From contig CP160629.1 of the NCBI GenBank assembly GCA_038993745.2, positions 2,604,001-2,668,000 of the forward strand: a stretch of 64,000 bases of DNA. The letters run 5' to 3'. The translations under genes and the position numbers were made by a program. Origin of the DNA: Aliivibrio fischeri (GTDB lineage: Bacteria; Pseudomonadota; Gammaproteobacteria; Enterobacterales; Vibrionaceae). Position 1 is the stretch's first letter. Every line of letters begins with the position of its first letter. Positions 33,194 through 42,082 of the stretch are shown here, one piece after another. Below the pieces are notes generated by a model that saw only the letters and a program-made list of their open reading frames with translations, did no database searches and was not told where the DNA came from.

Positions 33194-34933
33194 TTAACTG
33201 GTTGGAATAATGAGCACCTGCCCTATAGCAAGCTCATCTGAACGTAACTTGTTTGCTTTTCTTAAGCTGGAAACAGATACGCCATATTTACTTGCAATTT
33301 TACCTAAGAATTCACCGCGTTTCACCGTGTGTTTCTTAACGGGAGCTACAATACTCACTTTCAATTTTTGTCCAACAAACAAAGTATCTGACTTCAATTT
33401 ATTTAATGAACGAATACTGCTTGTTGTTACTTTATATTTCGATGCAATCTTTCCTAAATACTCACCAGAACGTACTTTATGAGTAATAATAGTACGAGCC
33501 TGACTTGATGATGTATTCGCAGAAGAAACCGTATTCTTCGGTGCAACATACACAGGTTTATTGCTTGGGATAACTAAAACTTGTCCAATCTTTAAGCTCG
33601 TGCTTTTAAGATTATTTTCACTTTTAATTTTCGCCATCGTCGTTCCATATTTCTTTGCAATTAAAGACAAAGACTCACCAGAACGTACTTTATGTTTTGT
33701 TTGACCATCTTGTGCAGCAAGTAGTGTACCTTGCGGCGGGTTATCATGAAGATAACGAATGATTGCTTTTGAAATAGAACGTGCAATTTTATCTTGATGA
33801 GCTCGTTGGAATAATTGCTTTTCTTCCGTTGGGTTCGAAATAAACCCGGTTTCAATCAAAATAGATGGAATATCTGGTGACTTTAATACTGCCAAGCTCG
33901 CATTCACAGGCTCTTTTTTATGCAGTCGAATCACTTTACCCATTTCTGATAACACGTTCTTTGCTAATTTATACCCTTCTTTTTGAGAATGACTAAATTG
34001 CAGATCCAATAGCGTTTGACTTACGTTTCTATCGTTACTGTTTTTCGCTAGTACGTCTCCTGCACCACCCAATAACTCTGATTGTTTCTCGTGTTTTTCC
34101 ACCCAACGACCAATTTCAGTATTTGCTCTACGTGTATTCAAAACGAACACAGAACCACCTCTTGGCTGTGGTGAGCGGAAGCTATCAGCGTGAATAGAAA
34201 CTAATAAATGCGATTTATTTTTTCGAGCTATCTCTGTACGTTTATTTAAATTCACAAAATAATCGCCACTACGAGTCATTACTGCTCGCATGCCTGGCTG
34301 AGCATTAATTTGAGCAACCACTTTTTTCGAAATCGCTAATGTCGCATGCTTTTCGTACTTTCGTGTTGGACCAATAGAACCAGGGTCTTCACCACCATGG
34401 CCAGCATCAATAGCAACAACAATTTCACCATTACCAATAATATGACTATTATTTGAATTAATTACAGGTTTAGAAGGTGTACTTGGTTTGCTCGGTGTTG
34501 GCGTTGAATTAGTTGTTCCTGAATGAGGTAAGTCCATCACCAAACGATGGCCATACTGCCCACCTGGAGTTGGTGCTAACTTAAACACCTCAGCCGTAAC
34601 AGAGTGCTTTAATTCAAAAACCAAACGTGTAGTGTTTTTTGATGGTGGTGAACTCTTTCTTATCTTAGTCAGTACCTTGCTGTCTTTAACATTTAAAGGC
34701 AACTTAGCTTTTACATTCGTATTCTTAAGATCAACAACCAAACGGTATGGGCTACTTAATGTAAAGTAGCTGTAATTTGCTTCTGAATTTAAGTCAATAA
34801 CAATACGAGTTTCATCAGGCGAAGGCCAAACTCGTATTCCCTCTAACGTGTTTGCAGATACAAAAAAGCTACTTGTTGAAAGAACAACAAATAGCGTATA
34901 CCAAATAATTCGAAAATATTTACCGATTAACAC
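33194..34933 (-). CDS. amiB: N-acetylmuramoyl-L-alanine amidase with LysM repeats (AmiB type)
   Basis: Periplasmic zinc amidase that splits septal peptidoglycan at division. A signal peptide (about 1-27) is followed by an AMIN domain (about 30-130, septal targeting). The Amidase_3 catalytic domain (about 170-395) has [26 protein letters not shown] and [11 protein letters not shown]. Three C-terminal LysM modules start near 414, 485 and 535 ([48 protein letters not shown]). 579 residues. Its likely activator, EnvC, is encoded at 57646. Overlaps tsaE by 7 bases. Confidence 0.95.
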
Positions 34934-35391
34934 AAATCCAACCGCTGTACTAAACTACATCCATACTCATTATTACCTGTGATCACAACATGACGAGCTT
35001 CACCATCGTAGCGAATATCAATATCAAGATCTGGTGCTGGTAATAACCCTTCCCCTTTCTCAGGCCATTCAACTAAACAAATTGCATCATCAGTAAAATA
35101 ATCACGGATCCCCATAAACTCAAGTTCTTCAGGATCAGCTAAACGATATAGATCAAAATGATATACCTGCCACTTATCAAGTTCATATGGTTCAACTAAT
35201 GTATAAGTTGGGCTTTTTACATTACCAGTATGACCTAATGAACGAATGAATCCGCGGCTAAACGTCGTTTTACCTGCGCCAAGATCACCATGTAGGAAAA
35301 TTGTTGTTTGTTGAGTACAAGCTTGAGAAAGCTGTCTACCGAATTCAACCGTATCGTCTTCAGTAGCTAAATTAAATTCAAAGCGTTCCAT
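34927..35391 (-). CDS. tsaE: tRNA threonylcarbamoyladenosine biosynthesis ATPase TsaE
   Basis: Essential ATPase of the TsaBDE complex that makes t6A37 in ANN-reading tRNAs. Walker [20 protein letters not shown], then [11 protein letters not shown] and [17 protein letters not shown], are TsaE motifs. 154 residues. First gene of the tsaE-amiB-mutL-miaA-hfq-hflXKC run. The nnr gene that usually precedes it in E. coli is absent here; queG is directly divergent. Confidence 0.96.
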
Positions 35392-35603
35392 TATTCACTA
35401 ATTTCACTATTTTAATTGTCTAAATTGATGGACTTGGTATCAAATTCACAATTTAATGTGATGAATGTTTATACACAAGTTATCTTATCGGTTTGTTAAT
35501 CTCATTGAGTAGAACTTTTATAATCAGTATCTAATTACGAGTTATCTTGTCTATATGATAAACTTTTACTCATTATACTGTAATAAAAAAATGTAATCTC
35601 CCT

Positions 35604-36719
35604 GTGAAAATTAACTATCAAGAACTCTCAAATAACATCAAACTTTGGGCAAAAGAACTTGGCTTTCAAAAAGTCGGGATCTGTGATGTCGATTTATCTC
35701 AACATGAAGTGGCATTAGAACAATGGTTAGAGGCTGGTTATCACGGTTCAATGGACTGGATGGCTCGACATGGTGTCATGCGAGCAAGACCTGATGAGCT
35801 TCATCCAGGGACAATTCGAGTGATCAGTGCTCGAATGGATTACCTTCCTCCTGAAGCCAATTTTGCCAGTAACCTAAAAGATCCAAACCAAGCTTATATT
35901 AGTCGTTACGCTCTCGGGCGTGATTACCATAAACTGATCCGTAACCAATTAAAAAAGCTAGGACAAAAAATTGAAAAAGAAGTCGAACAATTAGGTTATC
36001 GACCATTTGTGGACTCTGCTCCAATTTTAGAACGCCCATTAGCAGAAAAAGCAGGATTAGGCTGGACAGGAAAGCACTCACTTCTTCTTGATAAACATAC
36101 AGGTTCTTGGTTCTTTCTTGGTGAACTATTAGTTGATATCCCACTACCAGTCGACACACCAGTTGAAAATCAATGTGGAAAATGTACCGCCTGTGTTTCT
36201 TCTTGTCCTACCAACGCTATTCTTGAAAATGGTGTAATTGATGCTCGTCGCTGTATTTCTTACTTAACCATAGAAAACAGTGGTGTCATTCCTGAAGAGT
36301 TTCGTTCATTAATGGGAAATCGTATTTACGGTTGCGATGACTGCCAACTTGTTTGTCCTTGGAACCGAGAAGCTGAAATTACTCAACAAGCGGACTTTCA
36401 TCGTAGAAGCTCATTAGGTGACTCTGATCTTATTTCACTTTTCTCTTGGGATGAAAGTACCTTCTTAAAAAATATGGAAGGCTCTGCGATTCGCCGCATA
36501 GGACATACCCAATGGCTACGTAATCTTTCCATCGCAATGGGAAATGCACCTCATTCCGAAGCAATAATATCTGCACTACGAGATCGATTAGGCTTAGATG
36601 AGAATTTAGATATCCATATTCAATGGGCGATAAAACAACAATCGCTCGTCATCACTTCAAATAGAAAAGAACAACGCTTAATCCGTATCATTGAAAAAGG
36701 GCTTCCAAGAGATGCCTAA
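35604..36719 (+). CDS. queG: epoxyqueuosine reductase
   Basis: Cobalamin and iron-sulfur enzyme performing the last step of queuosine synthesis in tRNA. Two 4Fe-4S motifs are visible: CGKCTACVSSCPTNAI and GCDDCQLVCPWNRE. DSAPILERPLAEKAGLGWTG is a strongly conserved QueG segment. The start is GTG (KINYQELS). 371 residues. Divergent from tsaE; downstream lies a 558-bp non-coding region with DnaA boxes before the tRNA-Gly cluster, as at the E. coli datA locus. Confidence 0.96.
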   Translation: MKINYQELSNNIKLWAKELGFQKVGICDVDLSQHEVALEQWLEAGYHGSMDWMARHGVMRARPDELHPGTIRVISARMDYLPPEANFASNLKDPNQAYISRYALGRDYHKLIRNQLKKLGQKIEKEVEQLGYRPFVDSAPILERPLAEKAGLGWTGKHSLLLDKHTGSWFFLGELLVDIPLPVDTPVENQCGKCTACVSSCPTNAILENGVIDARRCISYLTIENSGVIPEEFRSLMGNRIYGCDDCQLVCPWNREAEITQQADFHRRSSLGDSDLISLFSWDESTFLKNMEGSAIRRIGHTQWLRNLSIAMGNAPHSEAIISALRDRLGLDENLDIHIQWAIKQQSLVITSNRKEQRLIRIIEKGLPRDA

Positions 36720-37237
36720 CCAATATTATCTCAATGACGTTATTCTCTGTTGATAACCATTTAAGATTGCATATAGCGTATGTGGAAAAGATTTCTATCT
36801 TTAGCAAACAACGTGAATATTAAAAAAGTTAAACACAAGACAGGAATATGATTAGGATCAAAGAAGTCAAGCAAAAAGATCTTTAAAAATCTTGCAAATA
36901 ATGTATAAAAAAACAAAAAGCCTTACTTTTCAATCACATAGAAAATATAGGTAAATTTAACGATCAAAAAACAAAAGCAAGATCCTTGATAAAACTCATT
37001 TCTTTCAGTTTTTTCATAAACAACTAACAGAGTTATCCACAGAAAGAGACATGTGGATAAGTTTGTTGATTATATGGTAATTAACAAACATAACTAACCC
37101 TCTGCGCTTACTCTTTATATGGAAAAGAGACCAGATGCAGATAGATTATTCGATTCTTTCATTGGTTATGAATCTGAGTATTCTAAAGAGCAGGATTTGT
37201 AGTGGGGTTAATGCTTCACAGCATTAATTTTAAAGAA
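36720..37237. other. non-coding region with DnaA boxes, datA-like
   Basis: AT-rich region with no plausible gene. Two perfect DnaA boxes face each other: TTATCCACA (37033-37041) and TGTGGATAA (37052-37060), ten bases apart. TGTGGAAAA (36781-36789) fits the degenerate consensus, and TGTTGATAA (36748-36756) differs by one base. In E. coli the DnaA-titrating datA locus lies between glyVXY and queG, the same neighbours as here. I could not point to an exact IHF site. The boxes are seen; datA identity is inferred. Confidence 0.6.
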
Positions 37238-37273
37238 AATAAAAGCGCTGAATATGATTCAGCGCTTTTATTT
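37238..37273 (-). terminator. terminator of the tRNA operon
   Basis: AAAAGCGCTGAAT and ATTCAGCGCTTTT form a 13-bp perfect stem around a 3-base loop, 5 bases past the last tRNA, with TTTT continuing on the minus strand. Confidence 0.9.
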
Positions 37274-37277
37274 TGTT

Positions 37278-37353
37278 TGGAGCGACACACGAGGTTCGAA
37301 CTCGTGACCTCAACCTTGGCAAGGTTGCGCTCTACCAGCTGAGCTAGTGTCGC
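37278..37353 (-). tRNA. tRNA-Gly(GCC), copy 1 (most distal)
   Basis: 76-base cloverleaf with encoded CCA; acceptor GCGACAC/GTGTCGC; anticodon loop TTGCCAA read as GCC; T-loop GTTCGAA. Last gene of the nine-tRNA operon. Confidence 0.97.
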
Positions 37354-37385
37354 ATGATCAATCGCTAATGCGTTTAATCTAAATG

Positions 37386-37462
<77 letters not shown>

Positions 37463-37522
37463 TCCGGATGCATTGTTTAAGACAATGAGACTATAAACCA
37501 TTTTTCTCTTCGAGAAAGAAAA

Positions 37523-37598
37523 TGGAGCGACACACGAGGTTCGAACTCGTGACCTCAACCTTGGCAAGGTTGCGCTCTACCAGCTGAGCTAGTGTCGC
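37523..37598 (-). tRNA. tRNA-Gly(GCC), copy 2
   Basis: Same 76-base sequence as copy 1, with anticodon GCC and encoded CCA, 245 bp away in the tandem array. Confidence 0.97.
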
Positions 37599-37630
37599 AT
37601 GATCAACCGCTAATGCGTTCAATCTAAATG

Positions 37631-37707
<77 letters not shown>

Positions 37708-37767
37708 TCCGGATGCATTGTTTAAGACAATGAGACTATAAACCATTTTTCTCTTCGAGAAAGAAAA

Positions 37768-37843
37768 TGGAGCGACACACGAGGTTCGAACTCGTGACCT
37801 CAACCTTGGCAAGGTTGCGCTCTACCAGCTGAGCTAGTGTCGC
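37768..37843 (-). tRNA. tRNA-Gly(GCC), copy 3
   Basis: Same 76-base tRNA-Gly(GCC), offset 245 bp from copy 2. Confidence 0.97.
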
Positions 37844-37875
37844 ATGATCAACCGCTAATGCGTTCAATCTAAATG

Positions 37876-37952
<77 letters not shown>

Positions 37953-38012
37953 TCCGGATGCATTGTTTAAGACAATGAGACTATAAACCATTTTTCTCTT
38001 CGAGAAAGAAAA

Positions 38013-38088
38013 TGGAGCGACACACGAGGTTCGAACTCGTGACCTCAACCTTGGCAAGGTTGCGCTCTACCAGCTGAGCTAGTGTCGC
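38013..38088 (-). tRNA. tRNA-Gly(GCC), copy 4
   Basis: Same 76-base tRNA-Gly(GCC), offset 245 bp from copy 3. Confidence 0.97.
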
Positions 38089-38120
38089 ATGATTAACCGC
38101 TAATGCGTTTAATCTAAATG

Positions 38121-38197
<77 letters not shown>

Positions 38198-38268
38198 TCC
38201 GGATGCATTGTTAAGTACAATGAAACTTTATCTTATCATTCAATTACTTGAACAAGAAGCTTTTAATT

Positions 38269-38344
38269 TGGAGCGACACACGAGGTTCGAACTCGTGACC
38301 TCAACCTTGGCAAGGTTGCGCTCTACCAGCTGAGCTAGTGTCGC
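38269..38344 (-). tRNA. tRNA-Gly(GCC), copy 5 (promoter-proximal)
   Basis: Same 76-base tRNA-Gly(GCC), first in the transcript, about 40 bases downstream of a TATAAT promoter. Its downstream spacer differs from the 245-bp unit. Confidence 0.97.
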
Positions 38345-38382
38345 ATTCTGATAAGGAGTAGCTCCTCGTTCAGAGGCTGCGA

Positions 38383-38410
38383 ATTATACGAGTAAACTGT
38401 GATGATGCAA
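38383..38410 (-). promoter_or_regulatory. promoter of the tRNA operon
   Basis: On the minus strand TTGCAT (38410-38405), 16 bases, then a perfect TATAAT (38388-38383), followed by a GC-rich discriminator (TCGCAGCC), the usual sign of stringent control of stable RNA promoters. An A/T-rich tract lies just upstream and could act as an UP element. Confidence 0.8.
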
Positions 38411-38415
38411 GCGTA

Positions 38416-38446
38416 TTTTGAAAAAAAATGCGATTTTTTTTCAAAA
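38416..38446 (-). terminator. A/T inverted repeat between orn and the tRNA promoter
   Basis: TTTTGAAAAAAAA and TTTTTTTTCAAAA are perfect 13-base arms around TGCGA. On the minus strand it ends in a T-run 36 bases after the orn stop, so it may terminate orn; it also sits where an UP element of the tRNA promoter would be. Confidence 0.55.
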
Positions 38447-38481
38447 TCGCGTTTTTCCGCTCAACAAATCATCAAATGAAA

Positions 38482-39027
38482 TTAAATTGTGAAAATATGT
38501 TGGCGATAATACTTCAATTCTGCAATAGATTCGCGAATATCATCTAACGCTAAATGTGTGCCTGCTTTGGTAAAACCATCTAAAACTTCAGGTTTCCATC
38601 GACGAGCTAGCTCTTTAATTGTACTTACATCAACATAGCGGTAATGAAAATACTCTTCTAATGTTGGCATGTGCTTATATAAAAAACGACGATCTTGTCC
38701 AATACTATTACCACAAATTGGTGATACGCCTTTTGGAACCCATTGCTCAAGGAAAGCAATAGTTTCTGCAATTGCCGCTTCTTCATCGTATTTACTTTCT
38801 TGTACTCGAGCGACTAATCCGCTATTTGTATGAGTATTGGTACACCAATCGTCCATTTTAGCCAACTCTTCTTCTGGCTGATGGATCGCAATTACTGGAC
38901 CTTCTGCTAAAATATTCAGTTGTGCATCTGTCACAATAGATGCAATTTCGATGATTTTATGAGTTTCAGGATCCAATCCTGTCATCTCTAAATCCACCCA
39001 AATCAGGTTTTGATCATTAATTGCCAT
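38482..39027 (-). CDS. orn: oligoribonuclease
   Basis: Essential DEDDh 3'-5' exonuclease that degrades two-nucleotide RNAs, including pGpG from c-di-GMP turnover. [20 protein letters not shown] carries the first Asp and Glu; [16 protein letters not shown] and [14 protein letters not shown] carry the later acidic residues and His. 181 residues is normal. Divergent from rsgA, as in E. coli and V. cholerae. Confidence 0.98.
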
Positions 39028-39125
39028 AGAGAGTTGCCTATTTTGTAACTAAAAAGGGTATGATACTCGGGCCGATTTATCTTTCAACATAAAACTGAAA
39101 GCCAACCAACAAGTGAATTAATTTC

Positions 39126-40190
39126 GTGGCAAAGAAGAAAAAGCTAACCAAAGGCCAAGTTCGCCGAGTACGCTCAAATCAAAAAAAGCGTATTGAAAAA
39201 ATTGAAGACAGTGTGCAATGGGATGAAACCCTACTAGAAGCTGCTAAAGAAGGCCTAGTCATTACACGCTTTGGTCAACATGCTGATATTGAAGACCCTG
39301 ATACTAAAGAAATCCATCGTTGTAATTTACGCCGAGGTATTGAAAGTTTAGTTTCGGGTGATCGTGTTATTTGGCGTCCAGGGACTGAAGTCCTTGCTGG
39401 TATTTCAGGTGTTGTTGAAGCTGTAAAACCAAGAACATCAATGTTAACCCGTCCAGACTATTATGATGGTATTAAGCCAGTAGCAGCTAACGTTGATCAA
39501 ATGGTAATCGTGTCTTCAATTCTTCCTGAGTTGTCTCTGAATATTATTGATCGATACCTTATTGCTTCTGAAACTCTACATATCAAACCATTAATTGTAT
39601 TAAACAAAGTGGATTTACTGTCTGAAGAAGAGTTTATCAAAGTACAGCAACTGCTTAGCTTATATGAAGATATTGGTTATAAAGTTCGATATGTAAGTAA
39701 AGAATCAGGCTACGGTGTAGAAGAACTTGAAGCTGAATTACGAAATCACATTAATATTTTCGTTGGTCAATCAGGCGTAGGTAAATCAAGCCTTGTAAAT
39801 GCACTGATGCCTGAACTTGAGATTGAGGTGGAAGAAGGGGCAGTATCTGAAAACTCAGGTCTTGGTCAACATACAACAACTGCAGCACGCCTGTATCACT
39901 TCCCACACGGTGGTGATTTAATTGACTCTCCAGGAGTTCGTGAATTTGGTTTGTGGCACTTAGAAGCTGAACAAGTCACAGACTCTTTTATTGAATTTAA
40001 AGACTTTTTAGGTGGCTGTAAGTTTAGAGACTGTAAACACAAAGATGACCCAGGATGCTTACTTCAAGAAGCCGTTGCAGAAGGTAAAATCAATAAGCTA
40101 CGATTTGAAAGCTATCATCGTATAATTGAAAGCATGTCTGAGAATAAAGCAAATCGCCAATTCTCACGAAACAAAAAAGCCGATTTATAA
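39126..40190 (+). CDS. rsgA: ribosome small-subunit biogenesis GTPase RsgA
   Basis: Circularly permuted GTPase that checks late 30S assembly. OB domain first (about 40-115), then G4 VLNKVDLL before G1 [14 protein letters not shown] and G3 [10 protein letters not shown], showing the permuted order, and a C-terminal zinc finger ([16 protein letters not shown]). The start is GTG ([11 protein letters not shown]). 354 residues. Upstream of psd on the same strand and divergent from orn. Confidence 0.97.
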
Positions 40191-40269
40191 CCACAATAAA
40201 CCTTGGGTTTAGCGACAATGTAAATATGTGGTAATATCCACAGCAAATGATAACTATTAGGCAAACAAC

Positions 40270-41133
40270 GTGTCAGATAATTTAAAGATTGGGTTACAAT
40301 ATCTAACTCCAAAACATGCACTTACTCGTTTGGCTGGCAAATTAGCATCAGCAAAAATGGGATGGTTAACAACTGCTGTTATTAAGTGGTTTATCAAACA
40401 ATACAACGTAAATATGGATGAGGCTAAAAACCCAGATCCTGAAGCGTATTCAACATTTAATAACTTCTTCGTTCGTGAATTAGAAGATGGCGCTCGTCCT
40501 ATTAATGAGGATGATTCTCTTATTTCTCACCCTGCAGATGCTTGCGTTAGTCAATTTGGTCCAATTATGGACGGTAAATTAGTACAAGCAAAAGGCCACG
40601 TATATTCTGCACAAGAATTACTTGGTGGTGATGAAGCACTTGCTGCTGAATTTATGGGTGGTGAGTTTGCAACGCTGTATTTATCACCAAGCGATTACCA
40701 TCGTGTTCATATGCCTTGTGATGCAACGCTACGTAAAATGATTTATGTTCCTGGTGACTTATTTTCAGTTAACCCATTAACGGCAGAAAACGTACCGAAC
40801 TTATTTGCACGCAATGAACGTGTTGTTTGTATTTTTGATACCGAGTTTGGTCCTATGGCTCAAATTCTGGTTGGTGCAACGATCGTTGGTAGTATTGAAA
40901 CTACATGGGCTGAAACCGTAACACCACCAACAGGTCCTGCGGTTAAAACATGGCACTACCCTCTTTCTGGTGACGACATGATTTGCTTTAAGAAAGGTGA
41001 AGAAATGGGTCGCTTTAAGTTAGGTTCTACTGTAATTAACTTGTTTGCTCCTAACTCAATTAAATTTGATGATTCAATGGAAAATGGTACTCCTACTCGT
41101 ATGGGTACACCATTTGCTCATATCGTAAAATAA
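40270..41133 (+). CDS. psd: phosphatidylserine decarboxylase proenzyme
   Basis: Inner-membrane enzyme that makes phosphatidylethanolamine. The LGST autocleavage motif that generates the pyruvoyl group is in [15 protein letters not shown] near the C terminus; [14 protein letters not shown] is also conserved. The start codon is GTG. 287 residues is normal. It lies 79 bp after rsgA. A strong terminator follows. Confidence 0.97.
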
Positions 41134-41153
41134 TCAAATTTTATTAAGAAATA

Positions 41154-41188
41154 ATAAATAGCGAACAATATGTTCGCTATTTTTTTAT
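41154..41188 (+). terminator. terminator after psd
   Basis: ATAGCGAACA and TGTTCGCTAT form a 10-bp stem with a very short loop, followed by seven T. Confidence 0.9.
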
Positions 41189-41224
41189 CTTTAGATAATC
41201 AGAATCAATTACTCAATGGAATGA

Positions 41225-42082
41225 ATGATGGGATATGAATGGTTAGCGTTGGCTGCTGCTTGTTTATGGGCGCTATCAAGTATGATTTCTGTAACCCCTG
41301 CAAGGCACCTTGGTGCATTCGCTTATAGTCGTTGGCGTATGGGGTGCGTAACTATCATGCTCTCTAGTCTTGCTTGGTTTACTGGTGGTTGGCTCTCTAT
41401 TGAATCTTCTCACTTATATCCAATGATCCTCTCAGGACTCATTGGTATTTTTATTGGCGATACGGCTCTATTTGCGTGTTTTAATCGCATGGGACCACGC
41501 CAAGCCGGTTTACTCTTTTCTTGTCATGCTCTATTTTCTGCCATTCTTGGTTACTGGTTATTTAATGAAACCCTACAAGGTTGGGAACTCGTCGGTGCCA
41601 TCTCTGTTTTTTCTGGTGTTTCTATTGCTATTTTCTTTGGTAAAAAAACAGATAATCAAGGAACGTGGGATGAAGTAAGAGGTAATATCTGGATAGCAAT
41701 CTTCTTAGGGTTGCTTGCTGCTTTTTGCCAAGCACTTGGTGGTGTTATCGCAAAACCTGTAATGCTTACCAATGCAGACCCAATTGCAGCCTCAGCAATA
41801 CGAATGGCTTCAGCTTTTGCAGCTCACAGCTTATTAAGATTAATGAACGTTCCAATATCTCGCCCTATTACGCCAATTAATTTTCGCATTCTTGGAATTG
41901 TGGCGTTAAATGGTTTTCTAGCAATGACTGTGGGTATGACACTCATTTTATATGCATTGCAAAAAGGAAACGTAGGGATGGTTGCTCTACTCTCTTCTAC
42001 AACCCCTATTATGATCTTGCCTTTATTATGGTTATATACAAAAAAGCACCGAACCGCTTTGCATGGCTTGGTGCTTTTTTAG
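41225..42082 (+). CDS. EamA/DMT-family transporter (C terminus apparently frameshifted)
   Basis: Membrane permease of the drug/metabolite transporter superfamily, substrate unknown. Several hydrophobic helices in two EamA halves can be seen (for example MILSGLIGIFIGDTALF and NIWIAIFLGLLAAFC). The frame present ends YTKKHRTALHGLVLF. With one more A in the run of six at 42040-42045 it becomes YTKKAPNRFAWLGAF then LAVMGTGLIVS, a normal last EamA helix, stopping at 42114. The region also forms a terminator-like hairpin: AAAAAAGCACC (42040-42050) pairs with GGTGCTTTTTT (42070-42080). Convergent with epmA. Confidence 0.82.
   Translation: MMGYEWLALAAACLWALSSMISVTPARHLGAFAYSRWRMGCVTIMLSSLAWFTGGWLSIESSHLYPMILSGLIGIFIGDTALFACFNRMGPRQAGLLFSCHALFSAILGYWLFNETLQGWELVGAISVFSGVSIAIFFGKKTDNQGTWDEVRGNIWIAIFLGLLAAFCQALGGVIAKPVMLTNADPIAASAIRMASAFAAHSLLRLMNVPISRPITPINFRILGIVALNGFLAMTVGMTLILYALQKGNVGMVALLSSTTPIMILPLLWLYTKKHRTALHGLVLF

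Follow-up and report, generated by a model that had tools for sequence, protein, structure and literature searches.

The datA site of Escherichia coli, which lowers DnaA-ATP, is the closest described system to the locus considered here. Its minimal form has been described as boxes 2, 3 and 7 plus one IHF-binding site (IBS), with the boxes all in one direction (PMC10380432, PMC5742627), and chromatin immunoprecipitation sequencing (ChIP-seq) has indicated that DnaA prefers double boxes 2-3 bp apart, the datA entry being TTGTAAACAgagTTATCCACA (PMC11317965). Read from queG, the E. coli interval holds TTATTCACA (14, minus strand), the IHF consensus (107, plus strand), TTATCCACA (176, minus strand) and TTGTAAACA (188, minus strand), the last two lying 3 bp apart; TTGTAAACA is what we infer to be box 7. 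DnaA-box clusters that repress initiation in Bacillus subtilis and Streptomyces have an analogous role near the origin (cited in PMC10950094 and PMC5742627). Here we analysed a 64-kb stretch of an Aliivibrio fischeri genome of two contigs (G000:C1:2604001-2668000, hereafter the window), in which an initial annotation had proposed the non-coding interval after queG as a candidate datA locus. Its sequence strongly suggests that this interval is a positional ortholog and a variant of datA. A trio of DnaA boxes, designated A, B and C, is kept across Vibrionaceae at the position that datA occupies in E. coli, and vibrios therefore probably carry a redesigned form of the brake.

In the window, boxes B and C are perfect and convergent with a 10-bp spacer, just as the initial annotation had described them, and box A, as TTTTCCACA, is one step away from TTATNCACA. 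Both of the near-consensus boxes that it named are present as well, A itself and TTATCAACA at 36748, but the latter is not conserved, being found at that place only in L001, L002, L003 and L031, the last of which is an exact duplicate of L003. When the interval was shuffled 20,000 times with its dinucleotides preserved, at least three TTWTNCACA matches arose in 7 shuffles and two copies of TTATCCACA in none. The window as a whole shows no enrichment of TTWTNCACA, with 7 matches against 11.3 expected, so the signal lies in the clustering within the interval; the convergent pair TTATCCACA-N8..12-TGTGGATAA occurs once in the genome, at this locus. DnaA and IHF matches with two mismatches are many in the window and were left uncounted. 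The idea of a chance or neutral cluster without function might draw on the AT-richness of the interval and on the genomic count of TTATCCACA (49 in 4.35 Mb vs 33 for the reversed control), but the shuffles and the family-wide conservation described below both contradict it already and make its likelihood negligible.

Intervals from 57 loci (L001-L057) and 59 further genomes made 116, of which 112 were distinct once exact duplicates (L031, L032, L034 and L036) had been dropped, and 15 more genomes picked to cover other genera raised the distinct intervals to 127; a queG match was missing from 5 of 197 Vibrionaceae genomes. All 112 distinct intervals carry the arrangement A(-), B(+), C(-), 81 of them perfectly and the others deviating by no more than a single mismatch in A and a single one in the B/C pair. 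The arrangement recurs in 12 of the 15 further genomes, and hence in 124/127 intervals altogether, whereas a lack of box conservation among vibrios was what the initial annotation had named as speaking against its proposal. The B-C spacer measures 10 bp in 104 of the 116 intervals and 9 bp in 12, and B lies 243-263 bp from A in the box-anchored intervals. This box-anchored alignment was used instead of a whole-interval one, which misaligned AT-rich stretches. The loci were chosen independently of the boxes, but the aligned segment is cut by them, so that the box columns are aligned by construction; with that limit, and with columns compared within the interval only, mean identity is 98.9% in the box columns vs 54.6% in the 343 others, and 95% identity is reached by 25/27 box columns vs 18/343 others. 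The exact B/C pair was found in 118/197 Vibrionaceae genomes, and genus g8, where misses are frequent, has TTACCCACA as box B in 17 of the 20 intervals examined. Additional DnaA boxes occur in most intervals of this genus (L120-L139), in many cases as TTATTCACA or TTATGCACA 36 bp before B on the plus strand. In an order-wide draw the exact pair was present in 13/13 Vibrionaceae (two genera) and in 1/184 other genomes (G244), where it lies on a contig other than that of queG and where one reversed-control match was found too.

An IHF-like site lies between A and C. Scored against the consensus WATCAANNNNTTR (PMC4585315), a plus-strand match with at most one mismatch occurs at A+135 to A+155 in 77/112 intervals, while other plus-strand windows have one in 2-6/112, except for A+60 to A+89 and for A+120 to A+149, the latter overlapping the site. 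Genes for both IhfA and IhfB score over the curated cut-offs. The alignment that had been called for to find conserved DnaA boxes and an IHF site thus bore out the boxes, and it yielded an IHF-like site in most intervals, with two mismatches in the window itself. The constancy of this arrangement bears on the possibility of a pure titration site, that is, a conserved cluster of high-affinity boxes near oriC1 that would soak up DnaA when copied, with no hydrolysis and with IHF idle or only aiding binding. Titration would suit the strong boxes, their origin-proximal place and a spacing that departs from the E. coli geometry of datA-dependent DnaA-ATP hydrolysis, and it has support in E. coli (PMC12371093). 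It needs no fixed order, orientation or distances, however, and the locus keeps all of these together with the IHF-like site; we therefore hold titration to be unlikely, yet serious enough to be kept in mind.

The likeness to E. coli datA extends over several features. Box 3, the IBS, and box 2 with its partner match A(-), the IHF-like site (+), and C(-) with its partner in order and strands, and both loci are flanked by queG on one side and, on the other, by a tRNA-Gly operon that is transcribed toward the site. A double box with a 3-bp spacer, directed from the tRNA genes to queG, is present in 112/112 Vibrionaceae intervals, and the double box defined by ChIP-seq in E. coli has the same layout as C and its partner (PMC11317965). 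Box A (112/112, at most one mismatch) corresponds to the second high-affinity box of datA, pointing the same way as C and lying on the far side of the IHF-like site. In blastn, the best match between the window and the E. coli interval was 17 bp, pairing box B plus flank with box 2 inverted (E 3e-5), and C matched box 2 over 16 bp (E 0.06). Outside Vibrionaceae, 59 of the 94 genomes with a queG match were examined after that gene, and AACAGA(G/C)TTATCCACA was found there in the same orientation in 5/5 genomes of family f17, one of f10 and one of f4. The datA of other Enterobacteriaceae and of the two further families among f17, f10 and f4 accordingly shares the double-box motif and its orientation with vibrios, but it has the E. 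coli-type spacing of 161-165 bp and, unlike vibrios, no facing box B; the 52 other non-Vibrionaceae genomes had no TTWTNCACA within 600 bp after queG or up to the first tRNA.

The locus also differs from E. coli datA. The IHF-like site is 122-129 bp from C in 75/78 cases and mostly 138, 147-149 or 152 bp from A, against 69 and 93 bp in E. coli, so that the E. coli spacing is not reproduced; this and the two mismatches of the IHF-like match in the window mark the locus as a variant and not a copy. Box B, facing C, belongs to the vibrio locus and is absent from E. coli datA, and TTAANCACA and a GATC pair are conserved in the vibrio locus, against a single GATC in that of E. coli. As to its host, the vibrio family mostly has no recognisable Hda. 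The remark in the initial annotation that the box arrangement is not that of E. coli datA thus holds for the spacing, for box B and for the GATC pair. Its broader proposal of a datA counterpart fits the neighbours, the order and orientation of the boxes, the partner of C, the IHF-like site of most species, the distance from oriC1 and the conservation, but has to accommodate the different spacing, the additional box B and GATC pair, and the poor IHF match of the window.

Several observations weigh against a datA-like role. The trio is missing from three of the 127 intervals (G001, G004 and G011), of which G011 and G004 still hold ACAGAGTTATCCACA and ACAGAGTTATACACA in the orientation of C. Two mismatches to WATCAANNNNTTR make the IHF-like match of the window weak, matches are also frequent on the plus strand at A+60 to A+89 (35/112, mainly at offset A+82), and on the minus strand A+165 to A+194 holds them in 18/112 against 0-8 elsewhere. 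The distance equivalent to C-A is 162 bp in E. coli datA and 271 bp in the window, the spacing of boxes and IBS in E. coli has been described as optimised (PMC5742627), and blastn found no alignment between the two intervals beyond motifs. The conserved distance from the origin is weak evidence alone, as any gene there would show the same.

That distance was taken from 63 searched genomes, of which 55 (53 Vibrionaceae) were used with contigs treated as closed circles; G057, G049 and G020 were left out because their queG is on another contig than mnmG, whereas G009, G038, G121, G333 and G200 were not entered. From the locus to mnmG, beside oriC1, the distance is 6.8-14.1% of the chromosome with a median of 8.7% over the 53 Vibrionaceae chromosomes, and it is 9.76% of chromosome 1 in the window compared with 10.06% for E. 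coli datA. In 35 chromosomes the locus falls on the side of mnmG and in 18 on that of mioC, a switch between species at similar distance such as inversions around the origin would give.

Place also bears on crtS, a Vibrionaceae site on chromosome 1 with GATC sites and a DnaA-box-like element. The numbering of V. cholerae chromosome 1 presumably starts near oriC1. With crtS at 818 kb of that chromosome (PMC3937223), the locus, at 228-441 kb from oriC1 in the 53 chromosomes, lies elsewhere, and the RctB-protected 19-mer (PMC3937223) has no match in the window with three mismatches or fewer, its best match in 131 intervals having four. An identity with crtS was rejected on these two grounds, and a crtS-like role, in which the locus would signal from chromosome 1 to chromosome 2 through RctB by means of its DnaA boxes and GATC sites, appears highly improbable.

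The head-to-head B/C pair raises in turn the question of a DnaA-reactivating sequence (DARS), by which ADP-DnaA would be reactivated at B, C and the partner of C and the locus would promote initiation. B(+), C(-) and partner(-) have the orientation of E. coli DARS boxes I, II and III, and the 3 bp between C and its partner equal the II-III spacer, so that DARS1 and DARS2 share the head-to-head pair and a third box 3 bp away. Their I-II spacer and neighbours differ: that spacer is 5 bp in both E. coli cores vs 9 or 10 bp in the vibrio locus, on which account the core I(+) 5 bp II(-) 3 bp III(-) was rejected, and the E. coli loci are at uvrB and mutH. In V. cholerae, DARS-like sequences have been described in the literature, including a DARS2-like one reported separately (PMC8682772). 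Taken together, a DARS-like role is quite improbable.

The initial annotation was right that the flanking genes are those of E. coli datA, queG and tRNA-Gly, as the MG1655 order psd-rsgA-orn-glyV-glyX-glyY-yjeV-queG confirms, but the cluster is not of tRNA-Gly only, since five tRNA-Gly(GCC) genes alternate with four tRNA-Met(CAT). Of the 112 distinct intervals, 76 have a tRNA-Gly as the first tRNA downstream, 24 a tRNA-Met and 1 a tRNA-Asn, all on the minus strand, and 11 have no tRNA in the fetched stretch. After the cluster, open reading frames (ORFs) at 38482-41133 match orn, rsgA and psd in size and are probably these genes. The queG of the window is 98% identical to that of G061 and 96% to that of Aliivibrio fischeri emors.2.1. 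Coordinates are collected in the table.

Features of the datA-like locus and its surroundings, in positions of the window
Feature	Position	Strand	Remarks
queG (epoxyqueuosine reductase)	35604..36719	+	ORF of 371 aa; relatives in 192/197 Vibrionaceae genomes; neighbour also in E. coli
datA-like locus, non-coding interval, 558 bp	36720..37277		trio in 124/127 distinct intervals
Near-consensus DnaA box TTATCAACA	36748..36756	-	fischeri clade only
Box A, TTTTCCACA	36781..36789	-	corresponds to E. coli box 3 in place and direction; TTTTCCACA 106/112, TTGTCCACA 6/112
Low-affinity-type DnaA box TTAAACACA	36829..36837	+	TTAANCACA at A+47 or A+48 in 104/112
GATC pair (36856, 36878), 22 bp apart, possible SeqA pair	36856..36881		86/112 segments
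IHF-like site TTTCAATCACATA	36928..36940	+	two mismatches to WATCAANNNNTTR; at most one mismatch at this place in 77/112
Box B, TTATCCACA	37033..37041	+	extra to E. coli datA; TTATCCACA 91/112, TTACCCACA 20/112, TTATTCACA 1/112
Box C, TTATCCACA	37052..37060	-	corresponds to E. coli box 2 in place and direction; TTATCCACA 107/112
Partner of C, TAATCAACA, forming a double DnaA box with a 3-bp spacer	37064..37072	-	partner ending ACA 112/112; spacer GAC/GAG 99/112, AAC in window
Second hairpin after tRNA operon	37208..37227	-	fold
Hairpin, 18 pairs, directly after last tRNA-Gly	37236..37274	-	fold z -7.9 for 98-nt stretch
tRNA-Gly(GCC) x5 and tRNA-Met(CAT) x4	37278..38344	-	transcription runs toward locus

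Other identities of the interval found no support. No ORF of at least 80 aa lies inside it, the one at 37216-37473 (minus strand) overlapping its right end and mainly covering tRNA; a search of 34000-42000 against Rfam at the gathering threshold returned only the nine tRNAs; and a promoter-type DnaA site was rejected, as both neighbours converge on the interval and a promoter scan of 36600-38500 gave 6 hits vs 4.0 expected. The same convergence of queG and the tRNA cluster would suit a transcription roadblock, in which bound DnaA blocks transcripts running on from the tRNA operon or queG and any replication control is secondary, and in E. coli DnaA box 2 is described as reducing read-through (PMC10950094). 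A strong hairpin, however, stands after the last tRNA ahead of the boxes, box A is about 490 bp past that tRNA, and in L005 the whole trio persists with no tRNA within the 1,497 bp that follow queG, all of which render a roadblock very improbable. The hairpin is likely a terminator or attenuator, and a scan for terminator patterns listed neither it nor the second hairpin; the latter, TTAATGCT-TCAC-AGCATTAA, is strongly conserved in the whole-interval Vibrionaceae alignment. Read-through from glyVXY has been reported to reduce IHF binding at E. coli datA (PMC10950094), and the layout of the vibrio locus would allow the same effect on IHF.

We regard it as probable, though far from assured, that the interval is a Vibrionaceae ortholog of datA in changed form. 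DnaA would bind the double box formed by C and its partner, and box A, and IHF would bend the DNA between C and A so as to join both DnaA groups; the ATP bound to DnaA would then be hydrolysed and re-initiation at oriC1 limited once replication has passed the locus, which lies about 10% of chromosome 1 from the origin. A second anchor might come from box B, which faces C, and read-through from the tRNA operon could displace IHF, as in E. coli. What the sequences show directly is the sites with their order, orientation, conservation and position, together with genes for DnaA, IhfA and IhfB; beyond these, we infer DnaA and IHF binding, looping, its timing and whatever B and the GATC pair contribute, and we read the hydrolysis from the anatomy of the locus.

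The GATC pair is possibly a SeqA site. GATC pairs 21-23 bp apart occur in 86/112 segments vs at most 4/112 for any of the 23 other permutations of the four bases, further GATC sites of the interval lie at 36962 and 36981 in the window, and ori1 of V. cholerae is described as requiring SeqA (PMC6090056). The pair falls within a strongly conserved block (36829-36885) between A and the IHF-like site, consisting of TTAAACACA followed by ATGATTAGGATCAAA and the second GATC; ATTAGGATC of this block recurs in the E. coli oriC stretch.

The distribution of Hda adds a further aspect. The Hda family TIGR03420 was over its curated cut-off in 1/101 Vibrionaceae genomes (G004) with at most 25 candidates per genome scored, in only 1/14 control genomes, and, with all candidates scored, in 0/13 Aliivibrio vs 8/8 genomes of other families; the best Aliivibrio match was DnaA itself. 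The genes perM, bepA, arsC and uraA stand together without hda in G000, G012 and G007, while G004, G200 and G205, like E. coli, have hda within this group (no uraA match in the G205 stretch). In the G000 block (L290, G000:C1:2198000-2212000), arsC and uraA are separated by a DUF2069 protein, a DUF2066 protein and one without a family, and perM (L290 4643-5706; G000:C1:2202657-2203705) is in two pieces with a stop between, which looks like an interruption or a sequencing error. Hda is listed for alpha-, beta- and gamma-proteobacteria (PMC3290774), and the literature consulted on Hda with Vibrio yielded no statement that vibrios lack it; a diverged substitute may exist in vibrios. Loss of Hda and presence of the trio are not cleanly linked, as G004 has Hda without the trio and G001 and G011 are without both. 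A further reading, which we hold to be rather unlikely as a whole, is that Vibrionaceae lost Hda and with it the regulatory inactivation of DnaA, and that the locus, with box B and the SeqA-type GATC pair, became the main DnaA-ATP inactivator for chromosome 1, timed by fork passage through hemimethylated GATC and by tRNA read-through. With Hda over the cut-off in so few Vibrionaceae, the locus may carry more of the DnaA-ATP inactivation.

No published description of a vibrio datA was found, although most subscription papers, some on datA, were outside reach, so that this is no proof of absence. Studies of datA have been made in E. coli, and a family-wide counterpart with another geometry would supply natural variants from which one could read how far the double box, the position of IHF and the spacing each count in lowering DnaA-ATP. 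Vibrios coordinate two chromosomes, mostly without an Hda recognisable by the searches made, and how they lower DnaA-ATP after initiation is therefore a question that this locus makes directly testable.
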